This document shows positions 15,955-33,409 of a DNA stretch of 47,758 nucleotides, in pieces (position 1 is the stretch's first letter; each line of letters begins with the position of its first letter). The translations under genes and the position numbers were made by a program. The notes beneath the pieces were generated by a model that worked only from the letters and a program-made list of their open reading frames with translations, had not been told where the DNA came from and did not search any database. The DNA lies in IMG/VR virus record IMGVR_UViG_3300035698_010891, positions 1 to 47,758 of that record; one strand, 5' to 3'. This DNA comes from a virus.

Positions 15955-16371
15955 CTAATCAATACTAAATGGTTGATTAACATATTCAGTTGTTGGGGTA
16001 TATGGAAAAGTAACTAGAGTGCGGCTCTTGGAGTTTGTATAACATGCACCGTTCGGTTCTCGAAATACACGACCATCAATATCGTATGAGCCATTAGCGT
16101 CTTTGAATACATTACTGCAACGTTTGTGTTGAAACAGCCCTTTGCCATCAACTTCAATCCACTGGTCGAGTTCGTCGGTAATGGGCGTAAGCGTTTCGTA
16201 GGCGGCTACTTTGTTAAACAACTGGCGGCATCTTGACGCAGACATACCAGAGTGCTCTTGTTCGGCAAATACCTTAATCAATTCCATTACTGCCTCGCCG
16301 ATTGCGCCATCATAGTCAAAGAACCCTGCCAACCTCAACTCTGTTTCTGCAAACTCTATTAAATTACTCAT
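15955..16371 (-). CDS. Hypothetical phage protein
   Basis: A 138-residue protein with AGGAG before the ATG. The first half is helical and acidic (EFAETELRLAGFFDYDG, then AVMELIKVFAEQEHSG). The second half is beta-rich with Cys and Tyr/Asn residues. It resembles conserved early-region phage proteins of unknown function, but I cannot name a family. It lies between a methyltransferase and the RNA ligase and ends 11 bases before the ligase GTG. Confidence 0.6.
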   Translation of the reverse strand: MSNLIEFAETELRLAGFFDYDGAIGEAVMELIKVFAEQEHSGMSASRCRQLFNKVAAYETLTPITDELDQWIEVDGKGLFQHKRCSNVFKDANGSYDIDGRVFREPNGACYTNSKSRTLVTFPYTPTTEYVNQPFSID

Positions 16372-18043: not shown

Positions 18044-18266
18044 CTTTGCTATGCAATTTGGCATTATCTTTTTCCTTAATTACTAACTCGCCATAAGCCC
18101 AGAATCCTGCTACCTCAAGAATCCTTAGATTCTTCGTCGGTTGAATGTGGACGCCTAAAAACTTTCCAAGAGGCAATTCTATATATTGGGCGAATCCCTC
18201 TTCAAAAGCTATCATCAATTGATCGCGCTCACTAGACGTTAGATTATCGTAGATTTCACGAATCAT
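18036..18266 (-). CDS. Small hypothetical protein
   Basis: A 76-residue protein whose ATG overlaps the primase-helicase stop by 4 bases (ATGA), so it is probably coupled to it. The N-terminus is helical (IREIYDNLTSSERDQLMIAF) and the C-terminus is basic. No family is recognised. Its coupling suggests an accessory to replication, by context only. Confidence 0.55.
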   Translation of the reverse strand: MIREIYDNLTSSERDQLMIAFEEGFAQYIELPLGKFLGVHIQPTKNLRILEVAGFWAYGELVIKEKDNAKLHSKDG

Positions 18267-20959
18267 TCGGGTGCTCCAATAAGGTAGCCATCTTTTATGA
18301 TATAGCGTGAAGGGGCATCCTCGTCAATTTCTGCGCCCCGCCACATAATATTTCCTATATGCATCTGACCGTCGCAAGACTTGCGCGCTCTAGGAAATTG
18401 CGGCGGGAGCTCCTTGCCTACACGGATTTTGCTCCAGTTATGGGCCTCATTTGGGTCTAAATATTCAATGAATCTCTCGTAGAATCGTGCAAAGAGTAGC
18501 TCCTGACCCAAAGTATGTGTGCATTTCTCACTAATGAAGACTTCAAGCTCAGTCTGATTTAGCTGTTGCGCGGCCGTCTTGTCGTCAGTCTCCAAACAAG
18601 GAATATTAAGACGATCATTGGATTTAGGAATCTCTAATTTAAGCACTGAGCCTAGAAAGTCCGGTGCTTCCTTTTCTAAGAGATCAATCAAGACCCTCTT
18701 AGGTATCAATTCCATTGGGTCAAGAGTATCAACATAAGACATAGTGATTCTGGAATCGCCAGAGAATATAGGACATGATTGATAATCGTTGGCACACTGA
18801 ATAAAATGTAATGTATTAGGAGACTGATGGTATGGGGTTTCGCCCTTTGGGTGGATTAGAAAATCACGGCTCGTCACCCAGTCTTTGATCCGGTTGTATG
18901 CCGTCTTATTTTTTCGTAAATCAGTCTCTTCAACGACACCCAAGATAGCACCTGCCAATTCACCATTGAAACCTTGTTGATTCATGAGCGCAGCATCAGC
19001 CCGCGCATAGCCCTTCGTTAAGAGTAACGATATAGCCTCATGGAAGATTGATTTGCCACTATTTTGCGGCCCATAAAGAAATAAGAATGGCAAAGGCTCA
19101 GTAGGGAATTGTAGTAAAGACGCTATCCAACATTTAAGATAGTCCGAGCCTTTGATTATTCCGTTCGCCTTACACCACCCATTGCTTCTAACAGCATCAT
19201 CAAGCCCTTTTCCACAATGCTCAAGAATCTTGATCCATGAATTATAATGTAAATCTTCATTCTGTGATGGAACAAATCTAAGTTGAGCTGCTCGACGATT
19301 CCACTGTCTATTGCCAGGATATTCTGGTTGAAACGGTTTATTTACTATCTTCCAACAACGAAATATTGAGGAACCTAATACGGCAGTTTGTTCTTTAGGT
19401 GTTAATCCTAATGAGCCAAGAGCAACACGGATATGGTTCAAAGGTTCAGCCTGCCATATGAGACCAGATTTTATCATCCAACCACAATCTTCATTAGTCT
19501 CCGAGATCAAATGCCTAACTAAATCATCATAATTAGAAACTTCAGGCTCCGAATTGATAGATGTTTGAGCCATGAAGAGTTTTGACCATTTATCTTTTTT
19601 CGGGAGCCAACCTTGCATCTCGTCACTGGTATCTTGATCCTTCTTTGTAACGTATGCAATGATACGTCCGTCTTTATGGACTTTTAAATGTGTCTCACGC
19701 CCCGATACGAGATTCCCAAAATCAAGCTTAATCCCCATTAACAAAGCAGCTTTGCCAGCTATCTCCGCTGTCTTGAACATGAAGCCGCCTTTTGGGTCTT
19801 CGAGACCCTCATAAGATCGGCAGGCTGTGCCAAAGTCGGCTTCTTTATTGAAGTAGCATCGTGTCCATCCTTGACCATCTTGATCCCAAGATCGATGTTC
19901 TTCAACACCTTGTGTATAACGCCGAATAGACCACGCGCCTTTACGCATAGGGTGTAGAAAACAGTTCTGTTCATTGAGGTTGGTAGCTGGTGAACTTGTA
20001 TCAAAGAATCCTTTAAAGCCTAATTTGACGTGCGCCTTCTTAAGATGCACGGTATGGGTAACAAGCATATTATGATCTTGATCCCACCACCATAAAGCAT
20101 TGGATTCTTTGAGATAATTTATAAGTTTTTTATGTTCGTTATCAAGAGGAACCGTAGGACGTTGACCACACATTTCTTCAAAGGAGTCTTCTTTTCCCGA
20201 TTCTAAAATCTCTTGAGGTAGATTCTTGCGGCGGGTTCCTGTAATAACTGGAAGATGATCTCGCCAGTTGGGGGAGATTTCACCTAACGAGGAACCAGCC
20301 TTCAATATTGTAAAACCTTCTGGGCAGGAAGCTAATTTCCTGTGCCATACCCACATGTTGCCGCCACACATATCGACTTTTGAATTAAAGTCCATACCAG
20401 TAAGCGCGGAGAGTTTGCCCAAGATACTGCGGGCAAGGGCTGCATGTTCATTATGATTAGCGGTAGGGATATTATCAAGGAATACGTATATATGAAGACC
20501 CGACCCTGATGTTGACTTTCGAATCGTTACCCAATCGATATTTTGTAACGACGACACAATCTTGTCTAATTCTTCATTTGTCAATTTTTTATTTGAAGAC
20601 GAGGAGGCGTGGCCCATCATTGCATCAAAGTCAAAAGCTACCCACTTACTTACACGATTTTTCCAATCCCATCCTGTCATACCAATTGCTTCGACATGTT
20701 CCTCTAGGTCAAAGTTCATTTCACTGTCGGTATATTCTGGCTCCCTATTGGCATTATAAGGAATACGAAAAGATTTCCATGTTGATAATCCGTCTGTCCA
20801 CCCATGCCACTTCTTTCCCTTATAATCTCCTTCTGTCCTTTCGCCACCATCTTGAGCTACATTGACTTGACATTCCATATCATGGGAATAAAGATTTGCA
20901 AGATCAGGTAATGTTTTTGCCTCTAAGAAAAGGATTATAGCTCTAGTTTTTGTAGGCAC
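18263..20959 (-). CDS. Primase-helicase (AEP-like primase with SF3/D5-type helicase)
   Basis: An 898-residue protein starting at GTG 20959 with AAAGGA 8 bases upstream. The N-terminal part has archaeo-eukaryotic primase-like features: FDFDAM (109-114, metal-binding Asp pair) and KSTSGSGLHIYVF (about 148-160, the sxH-type nucleotide site), as in TOTE/phage primases. The C-terminal part has Walker A GPQNSGKS (about 630-637), Walker B-like VVEETD (about 673-678) and a later arginine-finger region with SGDSRITM, typical of SF3 helicases. It is the first gene of the leftward operon, 110 bp from the inverted-repeat promoter region. It probably starts phage replication. Confidence 0.85.
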   Translation of the reverse strand: MPTKTRAIILFLEAKTLPDLANLYSHDMECQVNVAQDGGERTEGDYKGKKWHGWTDGLSTWKSFRIPYNANREPEYTDSEMNFDLEEHVEAIGMTGWDWKNRVSKWVAFDFDAMMGHASSSSNKKLTNEELDKIVSSLQNIDWVTIRKSTSGSGLHIYVFLDNIPTANHNEHAALARSILGKLSALTGMDFNSKVDMCGGNMWVWHRKLASCPEGFTILKAGSSLGEISPNWRDHLPVITGTRRKNLPQEILESGKEDSFEEMCGQRPTVPLDNEHKKLINYLKESNALWWWDQDHNMLVTHTVHLKKAHVKLGFKGFFDTSSPATNLNEQNCFLHPMRKGAWSIRRYTQGVEEHRSWDQDGQGWTRCYFNKEADFGTACRSYEGLEDPKGGFMFKTAEIAGKAALLMGIKLDFGNLVSGRETHLKVHKDGRIIAYVTKKDQDTSDEMQGWLPKKDKWSKLFMAQTSINSEPEVSNYDDLVRHLISETNEDCGWMIKSGLIWQAEPLNHIRVALGSLGLTPKEQTAVLGSSIFRCWKIVNKPFQPEYPGNRQWNRRAAQLRFVPSQNEDLHYNSWIKILEHCGKGLDDAVRSNGWCKANGIIKGSDYLKCWIASLLQFPTEPLPFLFLYGPQNSGKSIFHEAISLLLTKGYARADAALMNQQGFNGELAGAILGVVEETDLRKNKTAYNRIKDWVTSRDFLIHPKGETPYHQSPNTLHFIQCANDYQSCPIFSGDSRITMSYVDTLDPMELIPKRVLIDLLEKEAPDFLGSVLKLEIPKSNDRLNIPCLETDDKTAAQQLNQTELEVFISEKCTHTLGQELLFARFYERFIEYLDPNEAHNWSKIRVGKELPPQFPRARKSCDGQMHIGNIMWRGAEIDEDAPSRYIIKDGYLIGAPE

Positions 20960-21000: not shown

Positions 21001-21038
21001 TGATTTGATTTTGAGAATACGTTGTCAAAATCAAATCA
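21001..21038 (-). promoter_or_regulatory. Inverted repeat in the leader of the primase operon
   Basis: Perfect 14-bp arms TGATTTGATTTTGA (21001-21014) and its complement (21025-21038) with a 10-base loop, between the promoter-like element and the primase start. The same core ATTTGATTTT recurs in other leaders of this window, so it may be a repressor or ParB-like protein site, or an RNA hairpin controlling the leader. Confidence 0.55.
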
Positions 21039-21072: not shown

Positions 21073-21112
21073 CCGATATAGTATAATATCCGAATGGACA
21101 TAAATCGTCTAA
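21073..21112 (-). promoter_or_regulatory. Inverted-repeat promoter element, left copy (leftward)
   Basis: A 40-bp element that matches the inverted copy at 21301-21340 at 38 of 40 positions. Read on the minus strand it offers a TTAGAC -35-like box and a TATTAT -10-like box 18 bases apart, facing the primase-helicase gene, with a leader of about 110 bp. Placement on the outer side of a symmetric region supports a promoter role. Confidence 0.55.
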
Positions 21113-21300
21113 CAAATTCTGTAAACTCTTTTATAGCAACATATTACATTTTACGTTCTTATGTTTTTTAACCATTTGGTGAAAAAAAAAGAAAAGAAAA
21201 AAATATACAGTAGTAATTGAGAATGCTCTATCCAGAAGACTGTAAGACCGAAATCAAATCATATTCCTATACCTTATACATGTAACTATTTTAAAATACT

Positions 21301-21340
21301 TTAGACGAATTATGTTCATTCGGATATTATACTATATCGG
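21301..21340 (+). promoter_or_regulatory. Inverted-repeat promoter element, right copy (rightward)
   Basis: Inverted partner of 21073-21112 (two mismatches in 40). On the plus strand it holds TTAGAC (21301-21306) and TATTAT (21325-21330), 18 bases apart, pointing to the ParB-like gene about 115 bp downstream. Conservation of the whole 40 bp, beyond the two boxes, suggests a shared activator or repressor site overlaps the promoter. Confidence 0.55.
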
Positions 21341-21393
21341 CTTTCTGTCGGCGGTAAATGTTGCCGCCGGCGCAGGCAAATGTTGCAAGTGTG

Positions 21394-21431
21394 ATTTGAT
21401 TTTGATAATGCAACGATTTGCCAAATCAAAT
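21394..21431 (+). promoter_or_regulatory. Inverted repeat in the leader of the ParB-like gene
   Basis: Arms ATTTGATTT (21394-21402) and AAATCAAAT (21423-21431) enclose 20 bases, just upstream of the ribosome site at about 21438. The left arm belongs to a 14-base TGATTTGATTTTGA copy identical to that in the primase leader. It mirrors the hairpin at 21001-21038. Confidence 0.5.
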
Positions 21432-21453
21432 AATTTAGTTAGGAGCTTGTAGT

Positions 21454-22440
21454 ATGGCAGATTTGAAAACCTTGAAGATTTCTGAAATCAGAGAGAATCC
21501 TGTCGCCCTGCGTAACGTGCAGAAGGATTCTGAGCAGTTTCAGGGTCTTGTAGACTCGATTCGAAAATCGGGTGTGATGAATCCTATTTCAGTTCGTCGG
21601 AGTACTGACGAAAAGACTAACGAAAAGTTCTACGAGCTTATCGATGGTTTGCATCGTTTTGCAGGAGCCAGAGAAGCGGGACTCACCGAGATTCCCGTAA
21701 TCATTCTCTCGATGAACGAAGATCAGCTTCTCGAAGCGCAAATTATGACCAATATTCACAAGATTGAAACAAAGCCTTGCGAGTATTCGGCACAACTTCG
21801 TAGGATTCTTGGACGCAATCCATTGATGACGGAATCAGAACTTGCTGAGAAATTGGCGAAGTCTGCAACGTGGATTAAGGATCGCCTTAGTATCAATAAG
21901 ATTGCTGATAAGAAAACTGGCGAGCTTATTGATGAAGGTCGTATTTGTCTTGTCAATGCTTATGCGTTGGCGAAACTTCCGCCCAATGAGCAAGCTGATT
22001 TCCTAGAGCGTGCAATGACCCTTCCGCCTGGAGAATTTGCGGCGGCTGCTAATGCTCGCCTCAAAGAGCTTCGTGAAGCGGCTCGCAAGGGTAAAGATGC
22101 AACTCCCGCTGAATTTCAGCCTGCTGCATTTATGCAGAAGATTAAGGCCATTAAGGATGAGATGGAAGCCTCAAAAGTTGGCGGCGGCCTGATTAAGAAA
22201 GTCGGTGCAAAGTCGGCAGTCGATGGTTGGAATCTTGCTCTTCGTTGGGTTATGCATGTTGACCCGATGAGCGTTGAAGCTCAAAAAGCAAAGCATGATG
22301 CGCAGATGGCTGAAAAAGCAGAAGCCGCCAAGCGTCGTGAGATCAAGAAAGCTGAAGCTAAAAAGGCAAAAGCGGAAAAGGAAGCTAAAGAAGCCGCAGT
22401 CATTGCCGATGAGGTTAAGGCTAATTTCGAGAAGAAGTAA
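21454..22440 (+). CDS. ParB-like DNA-binding protein 1
   Basis: A 328-residue protein with TTAGGAG before the ATG. The N-terminal ParB/Srx domain has KISEIRENP, LVDSIRKSGVMNPISVR and the box II-like ELIDGLHRFAGAREAG. A KorB-type helix-turn-helix follows (MTESELAEKLAKSATWIKDRL). The last about 60 residues are a highly charged Lys/Ala/Glu helix, probably a coiled coil or DNA-contacting tail. No ParA is seen. It is the first gene rightward of the divergent control region and may bind the repeats there; roles could be partition, transcription control or replication. Confidence 0.82.
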   Translation: MADLKTLKISEIRENPVALRNVQKDSEQFQGLVDSIRKSGVMNPISVRRSTDEKTNEKFYELIDGLHRFAGAREAGLTEIPVIILSMNEDQLLEAQIMTNIHKIETKPCEYSAQLRRILGRNPLMTESELAEKLAKSATWIKDRLSINKIADKKTGELIDEGRICLVNAYALAKLPPNEQADFLERAMTLPPGEFAAAANARLKELREAARKGKDATPAEFQPAAFMQKIKAIKDEMEASKVGGGLIKKVGAKSAVDGWNLALRWVMHVDPMSVEAQKAKHDAQMAEKAEAAKRREIKKAEAKKAKAEKEAKEAAVIADEVKANFEKK

Positions 22441-23770: not shown

Positions 23771-25620
23771 TGGATATCAAATTACGTATTGGGAGATATA
23801 TGATACCTGTTACAATAACCGAACAAGGCTCTCGCCTCTTTGTCCAATTCAGATATAATAAATCTTTGCTTGGGGAAATCAAGTCAATGGAAGGAGCCAA
23901 GTGGCATGGCTTTGAAAGTCCACCTAAAAAAGTATGGTCGATAGCTAATTCTTTTAGGAATCAGTTTCAACTCAAATTTTTAATGGGCGAAAATCCTTAT
24001 GCCCATTTCGATAAAGATTTGAGTGACAAAACTTGGGAAACGATTAGGCCATTATATGCTCATCAGAAGCATATGGCTATCTTCGGATACCATAGACATT
24101 ATTGTATTTTAGCCTGTGAAATGGGAACGGGCAAGACACTAGCTGCAATAGAGATACTGGAAAAAGCGGGTATGAAAAATTCAAGTGATGTGTGGTATGC
24201 TGGCCCGCGAGCAGGTGTTGTTGCGGTTAATCGAGAATTGCTTAAATGGGATTGTAAAATCAGACCACGTATGTTGACTTACGAAGGGCTTGTTGGGGTT
24301 ATGAAAAATTGGCAACCAGGAGTTCCGGCTCCAAAAATGGTTATCTTCGATGAAAGTAGCAAGATAAAAACACCTACTGCCCAACGGTCACAAGCAGCTA
24401 AGAAACTTGCTGATAGTATCAGAGAAGAATATGGCGAAAATGGATATGTGATTCTGATGTCAGGAACACCTGCACCCAAAGAACCAACAGACTGGTGGCA
24501 TGCTTGTGAGGTTGCTTACCCTGGATTTATTAAAGAAGGGCATCCAGCAAAATTCAAAGCTCGCCTATCTTTGGTTGAGCAAAGGGAATCAATAACAGGT
24601 GGCGTTTATCCGCATTTAATTACGTGGCTTGATGATGAAAATAAATGCGCAAAATGTGGGAAACTTGACTACGAGAATCCTGACCATAGACTAAACATTA
24701 TGGAGTCTGGTCACAAGTTTCTTAAGTCAAAGAATGAAGTCCAATTTCTTTATGAAAGAATGAAAGGACTTGTTATTGTTTTATTCAAAAAGGATTGTTT
24801 AGATTTGCCCGACAAGCGTTATGAGATTGTAAAAATCAAACCTACAGTTGAAACATTGAGAACGGCAAAATTAATTGCTAAGGTTGCCCCCAGAGCAATA
24901 ACGGCACTAATGCTTTTACGGGAACTAAGTGATGGCTTTCAATATTCGCAGGAGAAAATTGATGAAAAAGATTGTATCTGTGCTGGTGGGAATCCCGAAT
25001 GTGATATGTGTGGTGGATCTGGAAAAATTGCCATATATGAACGTATCACAACTATTGTTGAGTCGCCTAAAGACCAGTATTTTATCGACGACCTCGACCA
25101 GCACGAAGATATTGGACGATATGTTGTTTGGGGCGGTTTCGAGGGGACGATAGACAGGCTAGTTACTATTGCCCATAAACAGGGGTGGGCTGTATTACGC
25201 ATAGATGGTCGTGGCTATTTAGGTGAAATGGCCACTGGTGAAAAAATAGATTCAGATATATTCCTCAATGCAATGGATAGATCTCATAAAGATTTTAAAA
25301 ATCTTTTAGAACAATATCCTAAAATTTGTATAGTTGGAAATGCTGGCGCTGGCGGTATGGCAAATACTTTTACAGCAGCCCCAACGATGTTATTTTATTC
25401 AAATACATTTAACGGTGAGCATCGTATGCAAGCTGAAGATAGATGCCATCGAATAGGCATGGATACTAATAAAGGTCTAGTAATTAAAGACTTAATACAC
25501 TTGCCAACAGATACTTTAATTCTTAAAAATTTGAAGCAAAAGAAAAAGTTACAGGCATTATCTATGGGTGAGCTTGCAGAAGCTCTTGATAAAAAGGAGA
25601 CAGAAGATGAAAGTTATTGA
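23770..25620 (+). CDS. SNF2-like SF2 helicase with DnaJ-type zinc cluster
   Basis: A 616-residue protein. Motif I is EMGTGKT (117-123), the Walker B-type box is DESS (194-197), motif III is LMSGTPAP, and the C-terminal RecA domain ends with GGMANTF, then EHRMQAEDRCHRIGM (the QxxxRxxR arginine motif). SNF2-like phage helicases share this pattern. Two Cys insertions are present: a CAKC around residue 293, and CICAGG...CDMCGGSG at 402-418, which looks like one DnaJ CxxCxGxG unit. It probably remodels or unwinds DNA in replication or recombination. The last 14 bases overlap the next gene. Confidence 0.85.
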   Translation: MDIKLRIGRYMIPVTITEQGSRLFVQFRYNKSLLGEIKSMEGAKWHGFESPPKKVWSIANSFRNQFQLKFLMGENPYAHFDKDLSDKTWETIRPLYAHQKHMAIFGYHRHYCILACEMGTGKTLAAIEILEKAGMKNSSDVWYAGPRAGVVAVNRELLKWDCKIRPRMLTYEGLVGVMKNWQPGVPAPKMVIFDESSKIKTPTAQRSQAAKKLADSIREEYGENGYVILMSGTPAPKEPTDWWHACEVAYPGFIKEGHPAKFKARLSLVEQRESITGGVYPHLITWLDDENKCAKCGKLDYENPDHRLNIMESGHKFLKSKNEVQFLYERMKGLVIVLFKKDCLDLPDKRYEIVKIKPTVETLRTAKLIAKVAPRAITALMLLRELSDGFQYSQEKIDEKDCICAGGNPECDMCGGSGKIAIYERITTIVESPKDQYFIDDLDQHEDIGRYVVWGGFEGTIDRLVTIAHKQGWAVLRIDGRGYLGEMATGEKIDSDIFLNAMDRSHKDFKNLLEQYPKICIVGNAGAGGMANTFTAAPTMLFYSNTFNGEHRMQAEDRCHRIGMDTNKGLVIKDLIHLPTDTLILKNLKQKKKLQALSMGELAEALDKKETEDESY

Positions 25621-26431
25621 AGTCCCACTTAATGAAATTGATGCCGATTCTGAATTTAATTGTAGGGGTGCAATTACACCTATTGATGTTATTGATTTGG
25701 CTAAAGATATTGAGAAGAATGGTTTGATACAGCCTGTAACAGTATGCTTGTTCAATGCTGTTGAGCAAGAAAGAACAGGGCTAAAGTGGAAACTTCTTGT
25801 TGGTTTTAGACGTTATTATGCTCATCAGGTTTTAAAGAAATTAACAATACACGCTACAATCCATGAACATATGGATGAAGTATCTGCAAGAATGTTCAAT
25901 CTCGCAGAAAATCTTCAACGCAAAGATCTCAACATTGTTCAGGAAGCAAAAGCAATAAAGAAGCTAAAGGATTTAGGAATCAAACAAGAAGAATGCGCTG
26001 AGAAACTTGGAACATCTCGTGGTTGGGTTCAAGTTAGGTTTATGCTTCTTGAGCTTCCAGAAGAAGTTCAGGCTGAATTTGCAATTGGTGCAATTGTGCA
26101 AGGGGGTGTTCGAGAACTTTATACTGTATTAAATAACTTCGGTAAAGAGGCTTGTTTCTCGGCCGCAAAGAAACTTAAAGACGGTAAAGCTCGTGGGATT
26201 CCTGCTACTGTATCCCCAACAAAGATGAAGGGGACGGCAAAGTATCATAGGAAACGACAGGAAATCTTTAAGATGATTGAGCATATCATAAAGCATACTA
26301 GCCCAAGTCTTATGACACGCGCATTAGCTTGGTGCGCTGGTGAAATTACTAACGATGAATTTGAAAGTGATATTCTATTAGAGTATCCTAGTTACGTAGT
26401 TAAAGATTGGACAAGGATTTCCGATGAGTAA
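25607..26431 (+). CDS. ParB-like DNA-binding protein 2
   Basis: A 274-residue protein starting at ATG 25607 with GGAG 7 bases upstream, inside the end of the helicase gene. The ParB/Srx domain shows PLNEIDAD, DLAKDIEKNGLIQPVTV, LLVGFRRYYAHQVL (box II) and NLAENLQRKDLNIVQEA (box III). A helix-turn-helix follows (KQEECAEKLGTSRGWVQVRF). It is more canonical than the first ParB-like protein in keeping a LQRKDLN motif. Its DNA target and partner are unknown. Confidence 0.82.
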   Translation: MKVIEVPLNEIDADSEFNCRGAITPIDVIDLAKDIEKNGLIQPVTVCLFNAVEQERTGLKWKLLVGFRRYYAHQVLKKLTIHATIHEHMDEVSARMFNLAENLQRKDLNIVQEAKAIKKLKDLGIKQEECAEKLGTSRGWVQVRFMLLELPEEVQAEFAIGAIVQGGVRELYTVLNNFGKEACFSAAKKLKDGKARGIPATVSPTKMKGTAKYHRKRQEIFKMIEHIIKHTSPSLMTRALAWCAGEITNDEFESDILLEYPSYVVKDWTRISDE

Positions 26432-26599: not shown

Positions 26600-26674
26600 G
26601 GGTAGATAGTTTAACTGGTAGAACCTCGGTTTCCAAAACCGAAGATGGGGGTTCGATTCCTTCTCTGCCCGCCA
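26600..26674 (+). tRNA. tRNA-Trp (anticodon CCA)
   Basis: A complete cloverleaf: acceptor GGGTAGA/TCTGCCC (one G-T pair), D arm GTTT/GAAC, anticodon stem TCGGT/ACCGA with loop TTCCAAA giving CCA, and T arm GGGGG/CCTTC with TTCGATT. Discriminator G and CCA are encoded. It is the first of four tRNAs in the cluster. Confidence 0.93.
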
Positions 26675-26678
26675 TGAC

Positions 26679-26755
26679 AGTGGAGTAGCTCAGTTTGGTG
26701 GAGCATCTGCTTTGGGAGCAGAGGGTCGCAGGTTCGAATCCTGTCTCCGCTACCA
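26679..26755 (+). tRNA. tRNA-Pro (anticodon TGG)
   Basis: Acceptor AGTGGAG/CTCCGCT with one T-G pair, D arm GCTC/GAGC, anticodon stem TCTGC/GCAGA with loop TTTGGGA giving TGG, and T arm GCAGG/CCTGT with TTCGAAT. Discriminator A and CCA are encoded. Only 4 bases separate it from tRNA-Trp, so both are processed from one transcript. Confidence 0.92.
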
Positions 26756-26756
26756 T

Positions 26757-26829
26757 AGGGCGGTAGCTTAAAGGTTAAAGCGCCAGATTGTCGATCTGGA
26801 GATTGCGGGTTCGAGTCCCGCCCGCTCCG
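26757..26829 (+). tRNA. tRNA-Asp (anticodon GTC), atypical acceptor end
   Basis: The D arm GCTT/AAGC, anticodon stem CCAGA/TCTGG with loop TTGTCGA (GTC), and T arm GCGGG/CCCGC with TTCGAGT are all good, and the discriminator G fits Asp. The acceptor AGGGCGG/CCGCTCC pairs at six of seven positions, with an A1-C72 mismatch. The bases after the discriminator are CCG, so no CCA is encoded. Confidence 0.85.
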
Positions 26830-26833
26830 CCGA

Positions 26834-26933
26834 CGTGGCGGTCGTTTAATACGTGAAAGACTTATGTGACCAAGGCATCTTTACTAGTGATTTGCGCAAT
26901 CGCATAAAAGACAGTAAAACCTGTCCCGTCACG
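26834..26933 (+). ncRNA. Putative tRNA-like structured RNA between tRNA-Asp and tRNA-Gln
   Basis: An 8-bp closing stem, CGTGGCGG (26834-26841) with CCGTCACG (26926-26933, one G-T pair), encloses about 84 bases. Inside, GACAG/CTGTC sits exactly where a T arm would be, GATT/AATC resembles a long variable arm, and ATGT/GCAT with a 7-base loop sits where an anticodon arm would be. That loop lacks the T33 needed for a normal anticodon, and the T loop is not canonical. It may be a decayed or specialised tRNA. Confidence 0.35.
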
Positions 26934-26935
26934 AA

Positions 26936-27009
26936 TGCTCAGTAGTGTAGTGGTAGCACCCCAGACTTTGATTCTGGTAACTAAGGTTCGAGTCCTTGCT
27001 GAGCAACCA
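26936..27009 (+). tRNA. tRNA-Gln (anticodon TTG)
   Basis: Acceptor TGCTCAG/CTGAGCA with the T1-A72 pair typical of tRNA-Gln, D arm GTGT/GCAC, anticodon stem CCAGA/TCTGG with loop CTTTGAT giving TTG, and T arm TAAGG/CCTTG with TTCGAGT. Discriminator A and CCA are encoded. It closes the tRNA cluster. Confidence 0.93.
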
Positions 27010-31230: not shown

Positions 31231-31697
31231 AGCAAATTGGTGTTTATATGGATATATCGAATCTTTATTATTGTGTAAAGCAGAAGTATGAAGGTAGAAA
31301 ATTAGACTATAGTAAATTTCTTCAGCATATAAAAGATCTAGGAAATCTTGTTAAGGCAGTAGCTTATGGTATCCAGATGAAAAATGAAGCAAGTCCATTT
31401 ATCAGGTCATTGCAGAAACAAAATATAGAAACAAAATATAAAGGGCCACGAGAAGATTGGTCAGTAGGTATTGTAATCGATATCATAGATGATTTAGAAA
31501 ATCATCGAGTAGACACTGTATTTATTGCATCATCTAATCGCGACCTTGCCCCATTTATCAATCATATGCGGTCAAAGAATATTGATATCATTATCTTTGC
31601 TGCTGGTATCTCAAATGAGCTAAAAACACTATGTCAAACAATTGAGATTCCAGAATCTCTTTTAGAGGATACCAAAGATGGAGAATCTAAAGAATGA
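31227..31697 (+). CDS. NYN-domain ribonuclease-like protein (LabA/DUF88)
   Basis: A 156-residue protein from ATG 31227 (ATGA overlap; GGAGG upstream). GVYMDISNLYYC gives the first Asp and the NL pair of NYN/PIN-like nucleases, DWSVGIVIDIID gives the middle acidic residues, and FIASSNRDLAPFI matches the SxRD-type motif. NYN proteins are usually RNases acting on RNA processing. Here it lies in an operon with a C39-like protein, with both stop/start pairs overlapping. Confidence 0.75.
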   Translation: MKQIGVYMDISNLYYCVKQKYEGRKLDYSKFLQHIKDLGNLVKAVAYGIQMKNEASPFIRSLQKQNIETKYKGPREDWSVGIVIDIIDDLENHRVDTVFIASSNRDLAPFINHMRSKNIDIIIFAAGISNELKTLCQTIEIPESLLEDTKDGESKE

Positions 31698-32179
31698 ATT
31701 TACAAACTATGGACGGACCATTTTGTATGGTATATTCGTTTGCAATGGCAATGAATATATCAGCAGAAAGTCTAATCCAAGAAATCGGTCATGATGGCAC
31801 AGAAATTGTTTGGCCCGAGTTAGTTGGAAATGCCAGATTCCGCGGGCATCATATCGATGAAATGGTAGATGTATGTTTGAATCATGAGTTAGCCCCAGTA
31901 GGTATAATCTGTATACCAAAAACCCGCCCATGGTCTGATAATGATGTCAAACCTATTCAAAGTCTTCCCGAGCAAAGATTCTGGAATCATATATATAAGT
32001 CAAAGGCATCAGTGATAGTTGGGGAACTATTCACTGGGGCTGGGCATGCTGTTGCTTGTGATGGTATTTATATATATGACCCACGAGGTATGAAATACCC
32101 ATTAACATCCTATAATTCGATCTTTAAATCAGCAGAAGATGCTTGGTTAATCATTAAAATTGATTCTGAAAATCATTGA
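31694..32179 (+). CDS. C39-like cysteine peptidase-fold protein
   Basis: A 161-residue protein, overlapping the previous gene as ATGA. DGPFCMVYSFAMAM gives a potential nucleophile Cys11 at a helix start, and AGHAVACDGIYIYDPRG gives His118 and Asp129, in the order Cys-His-Asp of papain/C39-like peptidases. It has no signal peptide, so it would act in the cytoplasm, perhaps on a host or phage protein. Alternatively it is an inactive fold relative. Confidence 0.6.
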   Translation: MNLQTMDGPFCMVYSFAMAMNISAESLIQEIGHDGTEIVWPELVGNARFRGHHIDEMVDVCLNHELAPVGIICIPKTRPWSDNDVKPIQSLPEQRFWNHIYKSKASVIVGELFTGAGHAVACDGIYIYDPRGMKYPLTSYNSIFKSAEDAWLIIKIDSENH

Positions 32180-32238
32180 AATGAAATCATCTTTTCGGAT
32201 TATTGGAATCATAAAATCATTTTATTCCTCAAATACAG

Positions 32239-32267
32239 TTGACTTTCCGCGAGCCGTCGGATATACT
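32239..32267 (+). promoter_or_regulatory. Sigma70-like promoter
   Basis: TTGACT (32239-32244) and TATACT (32262-32267) are separated by exactly 17 bases, close to the bacterial consensus, and face the small-gene block. A second weaker candidate lies 56 bases downstream, so tandem promoters are likely. Confidence 0.72.
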
Positions 32268-32294: not shown

Positions 32295-32324
32295 TTGACA
32301 TCAGAGCGCACAATTTGATTTTAT
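32295..32324 (+). promoter_or_regulatory. Second promoter candidate
   Basis: A consensus TTGACA (32295-32300) is followed 18 bases later by TTTTAT (32319-32324), a modest -10 box. The box overlaps an ATTTGATTTTATGATTT stretch like the repeats in the divergent control region, so a regulator could block it. Confidence 0.5.
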
Positions 32325-32377
32325 GATTTCAATAATAGACGTTAGTGATTTTAAGATCATCTGAAAGGATTGGGCAA

Positions 32378-32425
32378 ATGGACAAGGAAGTCTATGATTT
32401 GCTCAATCCTATAGTCTCATATTGA
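32378..32425 (+). CDS. 15-residue mini-ORF, possible leader peptide or gene remnant
   Basis: ATG 32378 follows AAAGGA by 8 bases and encodes MDKEVYDLLNPIVSY. Its first six codons are identical at DNA level to ATG 32900 of the sigma-like gene. It is either a leader peptide whose translation controls downstream genes or the leftover start of a duplicated sigma-like gene. Confidence 0.35.
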   Translation: MDKEVYDLLNPIVSY

Positions 32426-32746: not shown

Positions 32747-32757
32747 ATATACTCCAT

Positions 32758-32803
32758 CCTTGTCAGTATGCTAGACAACATGTAGTCCAGCATACTGACA
32801 AGG
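32758..32803 (+). promoter_or_regulatory. 15-bp inverted repeat upstream of the sigma-like gene
   Basis: Perfect arms CCTTGTCAGTATGCT (32758-32772) and its complement (32789-32803), loop 16. No T run follows, so it is more likely a repressor-type operator or an RNA hairpin than a terminator. It lies 85 bases before the sigma-like gene. Confidence 0.55.
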
Positions 32804-32887
32804 AGAAACTGCATCCTATTTGAAGTAGTCCGGTCATTAAAGAAGGTATGGCTCTGGGTTACTCAAACCTTTTCGAGGTGAGGCAAA

Positions 32888-33409
32888 GTGACTTTGATAA
32901 TGGACAAGGAAGTCTATAAATTAGCTCGTCGCTCGGCACTTTGGGCACGTTCAAGATTCAAAAATCAAGATGTTGATGATCTTGAAAATGAAGCTTTAAT
33001 GGTTTCTGTAGAATATTTATCAAGATATCCTGACGCCAATCCTTTCACACTACGAAAAACAGTCTATGGACACTTACGCAAGTATTGTGTAGAAAATAGA
33101 CTTATTCGCGTTCCAAATTCTACTATCCACGATCATGACTTTAGCCTAATGGTCTATTGTCGATCTTTGAATCATTCTGGGGATGATAATAATTCTACAG
33201 ATAGTGCTGAACCTTCCGTTGAAGATGTCAATGTATTTGGCGTGTCTGATATTATCAAAATGTATAAGATTTCAGAGGTCGAACTTGCCATCTTAAATTT
33301 GCGTATTGCTGGATACTCTTTTGATGAAATAGCACAAAAACTTGGTATGGGCGCATCAACAGCAAAGTGGCATATTACCAATGTGAAAGAAAGGGCTGGT
33401 GGTCAATGA
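32888..33409 (+). CDS. Sigma-factor-like protein
   Basis: About 173 residues from GTG 32888 (GAGGTG upstream); ATG 32900 is the alternative. Residues about 17-75 (WARSRFKNQDVDDLENEALM, then FTLRKTVYGHLRKY) resemble sigma region 2, and about 130-168 (LAILNLRIAGYSFDEIAQKL, then GASTAKWHITNVKER) the region 4 helix-turn-helix. Size fits ECF-type sigma factors. It could redirect host RNA polymerase to phage promoters such as those in this window. The linker (HSGDDNNSTDSAEPSVED) is acidic. Confidence 0.75.
   Translation: MTLIMDKEVYKLARRSALWARSRFKNQDVDDLENEALMVSVEYLSRYPDANPFTLRKTVYGHLRKYCVENRLIRVPNSTIHDHDFSLMVYCRSLNHSGDDNNSTDSAEPSVEDVNVFGVSDIIKMYKISEVELAILNLRIAGYSFDEIAQKLGMGASTAKWHITNVKERAGGQ

Follow-up and report, generated by a model that had tools for sequence, protein, structure and literature searches.

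The window analysed here is the whole 47,758-nt stretch of the virus record IMGVR_UViG_3300035698_010891. Two divergent genes flank the region of interest. The first gene of the left arm encodes a primase-type protein (DUF5906; 18263-20959, minus strand), and the first gene of the right arm encodes a ParB-like protein with ParB_N and HTH domains (ParB1; 21454-22440, plus strand). A second ParB-like protein, ParB2, is encoded at 25568-26431 on the plus strand. An earlier note on this DNA had placed a primase and a ParB-like gene at the head of the two replication arms, and the domain assignments bear this out. The left operon also includes a Tad3-type (anti-Thoeris) protein at 15955-16371 (Pfam 1.1e-34), with DNA methyltransferases and an RNA ligase near it. 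Four clustered tRNA genes (Trp, Pro, Asp, and Gln) are located at 26600-27009.

Between the primase and ParB1 genes, a 40-bp element at 21073-21112 recurs in inverted orientation at 21301-21340. The copies differ by two mismatches (38/40, 95% complementary) and are separated by 188 nt. Each one carries the outward pair TTAGAC-18-TATTAT, as the earlier note described. In the right arm (plus strand), which faces the ParB-like gene, the promoter-like boxes are -35 at 21301-21306 and, after 18 nt, -10 at 21325-21330. The left arm (minus strand) faces the primase gene and has the same element, with -35 at 21112-21107 and -10 at 21088-21083. The promoter scanner called TAGACG-17-TATTAT in these arms, which is the same site. 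From arm end to start codon there are 113 bp on each side (GTG at 20959; ATG at 21454), close to the previous estimate of about 110 bp. The inverted pair scores 35, compared with a maximum of 12 in dinucleotide shuffles; none of 60 shuffles equals it. Identity drops abruptly at both edges, to 64% across 72 aligned positions including the flanks. No third copy of the arm exists in the 47,758-nt window, where the next best 40-mer has 15 mismatches.

We gathered 100 related loci through primase and ParB searches. Nearly all are IMG/VR contigs, and one comes from a Planctomycetaceae bin. Cultured phage records gave no match to the window primase, and the matches of the SNF2-like helicase, in Xanthomonas and Pseudomonas phages, do not exceed about 28% identity. 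A divergent ParB neighbour lies within 3 kb of the primase in 81 of the 100 loci (82 with the window). ParB1 was found wherever the architecture was scored, as the loci had been chosen for that. After removal of near-duplicates, 70 distinct regions remained, and the 55 of them with a length of 150-700 bp formed the scored set. An inverted pair was considered significant when at most 3 of 60 shuffles equalled it. Such a pair is present in 52 of the 55 distinct intergenic regions. By inspection, the best pair is a promoter-type arm in about 43 regions and an operator-type repeat in about 9 of the 52. The repeat, looked for in relatives with the same gene order, is thus present in about 43-52 of 55, with a different sequence; this outcome favours the proposed architecture. 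A score of 16 was reached by 36/55 regions versus 0/220 length-matched control windows taken from the same loci, and ten divergent gaps of E. coli K-12 scored no higher than 9.5.

The arms are near-identical within a genome (33/33 in L026, 38/38 in L080, and 41/42 in L077). Between genomes they are mostly unrelated, close relatives excepted, and an exact 22-mer of the window arm had no match in viral contigs. It means that the arm pair changes in concert. Among the variable columns of related-genome pairs, 169 were concerted, 41 side-specific, and 12 cross, a concerted count somewhat favoured by choosing the arms as the best inverted pair. The closest pair, L037/L038, has mainly side-specific changes (6 vs 1), and the more distant pairs have mainly concerted ones. 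This rise with divergence is as would be expected of concerted evolution. In L006, L037, and L074, the inner arm part forms a perfect or near-perfect 26-bp palindrome (GTAAGTCACGTAATTACGTGACTTAC), and the changes in L074 are matched on both sides.

The common features of the arms are concentrated around the -10 box. In 21 of 47 genomes, versus 5.8 in shuffles, both arms match TATAAT at 5/6 or more positions with the same offset. The outer arm edge mostly falls 0-11 nt past this box, about where transcription would be expected to begin. Among 4-mers common to both arms, CGTA is the most enriched (15/48 vs 2.0), and TATA is also frequent (22 vs 9.3). On the -35 side, no common sequence exists across genomes, and most lack a good -35 box; compared with TTGACA at 16-18 nt, the window has TTAGAC and most relatives have a weak match. 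A single universal arm motif was rejected, as Gibbs sampling yielded only a weak -10-like motif. The earlier note took conservation beyond the promoter boxes as the mark of a regulator. The arm sequence turns over between genomes and is identical only within each one.

The same pattern could come from recombination or template switching between the inverted copies, with identity beyond the promoter boxes having no regulatory meaning. Template switching homogenises the arms of inverted repeats (PMC8604942). Like those repeats, the arms described here are alike within and drift between lineages; unlike them, they coincide with promoter-like elements, and some genomes have a distant third copy. 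The growth of the concerted pattern with divergence is compatible with homogenisation, as is the inner arm length, which varies from 15 to 88 bp. However, the outer edge sits just past the -10 box across lineages. Moreover, the ParB2 promoter region of L072 (about 1050-1130) carries a third promoter-arm copy together with a TGATTTGATT operator, and so does that of L005 (15158-15260). In L072 this matching copy is about 4 kb off, at parB2, and is not one arm of a short inverted pair. Template switching can also invert the spacer, and no such inversion was seen between relatives. The regularity of the outer edge, like the third copy in L072, speaks for function; the variability of the inner edge speaks for a mutational process. 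We regard homogenisation as a possible explanation, though not the probable one.

A second element, absent from the earlier note, consists of inverted half-site pairs (TGATTTGATT...AATCAAATCA) in both leaders and one half-site in the centre. The left-leader operator is the inverted pair TGATTTGATTTTGA...TCAAAATCAAATCA (21001-21038) and the right-leader operator is TGATTTGATTTTGA...AAATCAAATAA (21392-21433). The lone half-site AAATCAAATCA lies between the promoters (21251-21261). The 14-mer TGATTTGATTTTGA, allowing up to two mismatches, has no other occurrence in the window. Between the right promoter and the right-leader operator lies a GC-rich hairpin without a T run (21348-21372). An Rfam search gave nothing above threshold.

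This operator is frequent in the relatives. Of 62 genomes, 37 contain AATCAAATCA or TGATTTGATT, where 0.2 would be expected. Counted over these regions (45.5 kb), TGATTYGATT has 98 occurrences, versus 11 in the remaining 891 kb of the loci, an enrichment of about 170-fold. Half-sites look like tandem pentamers, with spacers from 0 to about 24 bp, and copies can also be single, direct, or divergent. Genomes without TGATTYGATT often have a different repeat, laid out in the same way, in one leader or in both. Some genomes (e.g., L011, L032, L075, L082, and L095) have no recognizable operator. Loci without an adjacent ParB (L022, L023, L025, L027, and L028), mostly the most distant relatives, have none upstream of the primase. 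The sequence common to different genomes is the TGATTYGATT-type operator and not the arm. As architecture, the earlier proposal that one regulator switches both arms has good support; the shared regulator, though, is marked by this leader operator and not by the 40-bp arm.

In whole records, most genomes show a second, distant operator cluster (the reversed control gave about 0). Of 13 such places fetched, 11 contain a homologue of the window gene at 31694-32179 or of its neighbour, and a sigma-factor-like gene then follows in most of those 11. The window has this arrangement, which the earlier note does not mention. An operator-like arm, ATTATTGGAATCATAAAATCA (32199-32219), lies upstream of a sigma-70-type promoter, TTGACT-17-TATACT (32239-32267, plus strand), and a downstream operator-like arm, TGATTTTATGATTTCAATAAT, follows (32316-32336). 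The sigma-factor-like protein (phrog_1740; 32888-33409, plus strand) is weakly similar to the products of the relatives' sigma genes. The repeat at the window site is a diverged form of the operator (TGATTTTATGATT). A near-consensus sigma-70 promoter lies between both sigma-site operators in L107, L109, L110, L112, and L119. In some relatives no good promoter was found between them, and the best match is no better than chance. Two other repeats are found near the sigma-like gene of the window. A 24-nt direct repeat (32377-32400 and 32899-32922) takes in the ATGGACAAGGAAGTCTAT start region of the gene; the copy 522 bp upstream of it resembles a truncated duplication of that start. Just before the gene, 32757-32804 is a near-perfect palindrome of two 24-nt arms without a loop.

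If a drifted regulator uses the variant leader repeats as its operators, each repeat should also be present at the sigma gene of its own genome. We tested this prediction. Variant operators appear at both the divergent and the sigma loci: GGTCTGGTC in L084, GATGTGATGG in L059 and L060, and TGATTCTGATTC in L067. In L084, the sigma site has GGTCTGGTC and a GGTCTAGTC copy around TTGACA-17-TATACT. Each variant sigma-site repeat adjoins the same upstream gene, and 3/4 are near a recognizable sigma gene. Such joint drift of sites 11-17 kb apart points to a single trans-acting DNA-binding protein in each genome. Since the same operator family is found upstream of the sigma gene, one such protein would control both replication arms and the sigma gene.

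The most likely binder of the operators is predicted to be ParB1, the product of the gene directly behind the right-leader operator. The closest solved folds to its predicted structure (moderate confidence, mean pLDDT 74.6) are ParB, Noc, and KorB. When columns are ranked by covariation with operator class, residue 142 of the expected recognition helix comes second; other columns rank as high, and the covariation is confounded by descent. ParB2 or another protein could be the binder instead. The window protein has the ParB_N fold and HTH of ParABS systems. In contrast to them, no ParA was found among the scanned proteins neighbouring the window ParB-like genes, there is no parS-like fixed palindrome, and the sites are at promoters. 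Half-site spacing is variable here, compared with the fixed palindromes of known ParB proteins.

Phage lambda has a divergent early control region, PR/PRM, whose promoters are not copies of each other. Both regions have back-to-back promoters and operators common to two transcription arms. The promoters of the window, unlike those of lambda, are mirror duplicates kept identical within each genome. Another parallel, in the regulator, is KorB of plasmid RK2, for which defined OB operators and a KorA partner are described (PMC11790492). As in the KorB regulon, a ParB-family protein with an HTH (here, ParB1) would act through one operator family (here, predicted) at several promoters, the one in front of its own gene among them. 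On the other hand, there is no single palindrome of fixed spacing in these phages; spacers range over 0-24 bp and the operators drift between lineages.

The locus is probably a divergent early control region in a lineage of uncultivated phages, with matched promoters and a co-drifting operator regulon that includes the sigma gene, and with ParB1 as a KorB-like autorepressor. Two mirror copies of one promoter, back to back, would drive the primase arm to the left and the ParB-like arm to the right. Each leader has a predicted operator of inverted TGATTYGATT-type half-sites between promoter and first gene. The host polymerase would start transcription of the sigma gene; with or without the help of a phage factor, it would also fire both mirror promoters, so that the two replication arms start together. 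ParB1 would then accumulate and shut off the early set through the common operators. The inverted pair and its spread, the match within genomes and turnover between them, the operator enrichment, and the co-drift of operator variants at unlinked sites are observed directly. Promoter activity of the arms, ParB1 as the binder, repression rather than activation, and the order of events are inferred.

The arms could depend on an initiation factor particular to each lineage, in the simplest case the fast-evolving sigma of the phage itself, or on an activator. Both arms must then carry the same sequence and drift with that factor. The close match between the two arms of a genome across the -35 and spacer region agrees with this, and so does the enrichment of CGTA near the -10 region. 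The sigma genes share about 20-44% identity versus about 50-67% for the primases, and the sigma gene has its own host-type promoter. Nevertheless, the arm sequence was not found at other promoters of the window or of most loci; it was also looked for at the sigma-gene promoter and not found. Furthermore, the Tad3 anti-defence gene of the left operon is expected to be expressed at once by the host polymerase. A dedicated factor is conceivable, and we would not call it likely. A broader form would be a private code per lineage. In it, the phage's own fast-evolving sigma or activator reads the promoter pair, the ParB-like protein is a master repressor of drifting operator specificity that switches the sigma gene and both replication arms, and the arms, the operators, and the two proteins co-evolve in every genome. 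We put this forward tentatively.

The region could also be a replication origin, with mirror-image initiator sites around an AT-rich centre and with the promoters as secondary elements. This is compatible with the promoter reading. The region lies between replication genes, and the GC skew changes sign here. However, the sign changes at 9 kb as well, together with gene direction, so that the skew tracks the coding strand. A homopurine tract occupies the centre of the AT-rich spacer (21181-21203, plus strand), and a purine run reaches significance in 23 of 46 relatives; the AT content of the centre is not above that of the arms. As single-stranded DNA, the region folds far better than shuffles (z -9.7). 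Ladders of ACTN tetranucleotides (ACTNACTNACT; for example, ACTGACTTACT) have 20 matches in these regions versus 5 in 891 kb elsewhere, but the window has none. They are found in the centres of relatives such as L031, L046, L065, and L077, and it is possible that they are initiator sites. The third arm copy at parB2 is not origin-like. Altogether, we find an origin as the main role of the region rather unlikely.

The leader palindromes may be RNA hairpins and not DNA operators. They are in presumed transcribed leaders, fold well, and vary in half-site spacing. Against this, one copy at the sigma gene is upstream of the promoter, single, direct, and divergent copies occur, and some pairs change without compensation (e.g., TGATTCGATT with AATCAAATCA in L034). 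We judge this very improbable. Finally, inverted repeats flank the 188-bp spacer, and recombination between them could make an invertible switch, which is scarcely credible: a flip would leave both promoters unchanged, no recombinase was found among the scanned proteins, and inversion was rejected on the common orientation in which the spacers of related genomes align.

Operators shared by divergent promoters and ParB-family repressors such as KorB are already known (PMC11790492). In the open-access literature searched, we found no description of mirrored promoters of this sort. Specifically, we came across no account of a mirror-duplicated promoter pair that is matched within genomes while its sequence turns over across a phage group, and that co-drifting operators tie to a sigma gene. 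The mirror promoters clearly illustrate how regulatory DNA can evolve in concert within a genome. The early-region reading gives a predicted early circuit for a large phage group with no cultured relative found by primase. Likewise, it makes phage ParB-like proteins, which are common and mostly unexplained, directly testable as regulators. The natural operator variants, together with their ParB-like proteins, would constitute a data set on the evolution of DNA recognition.
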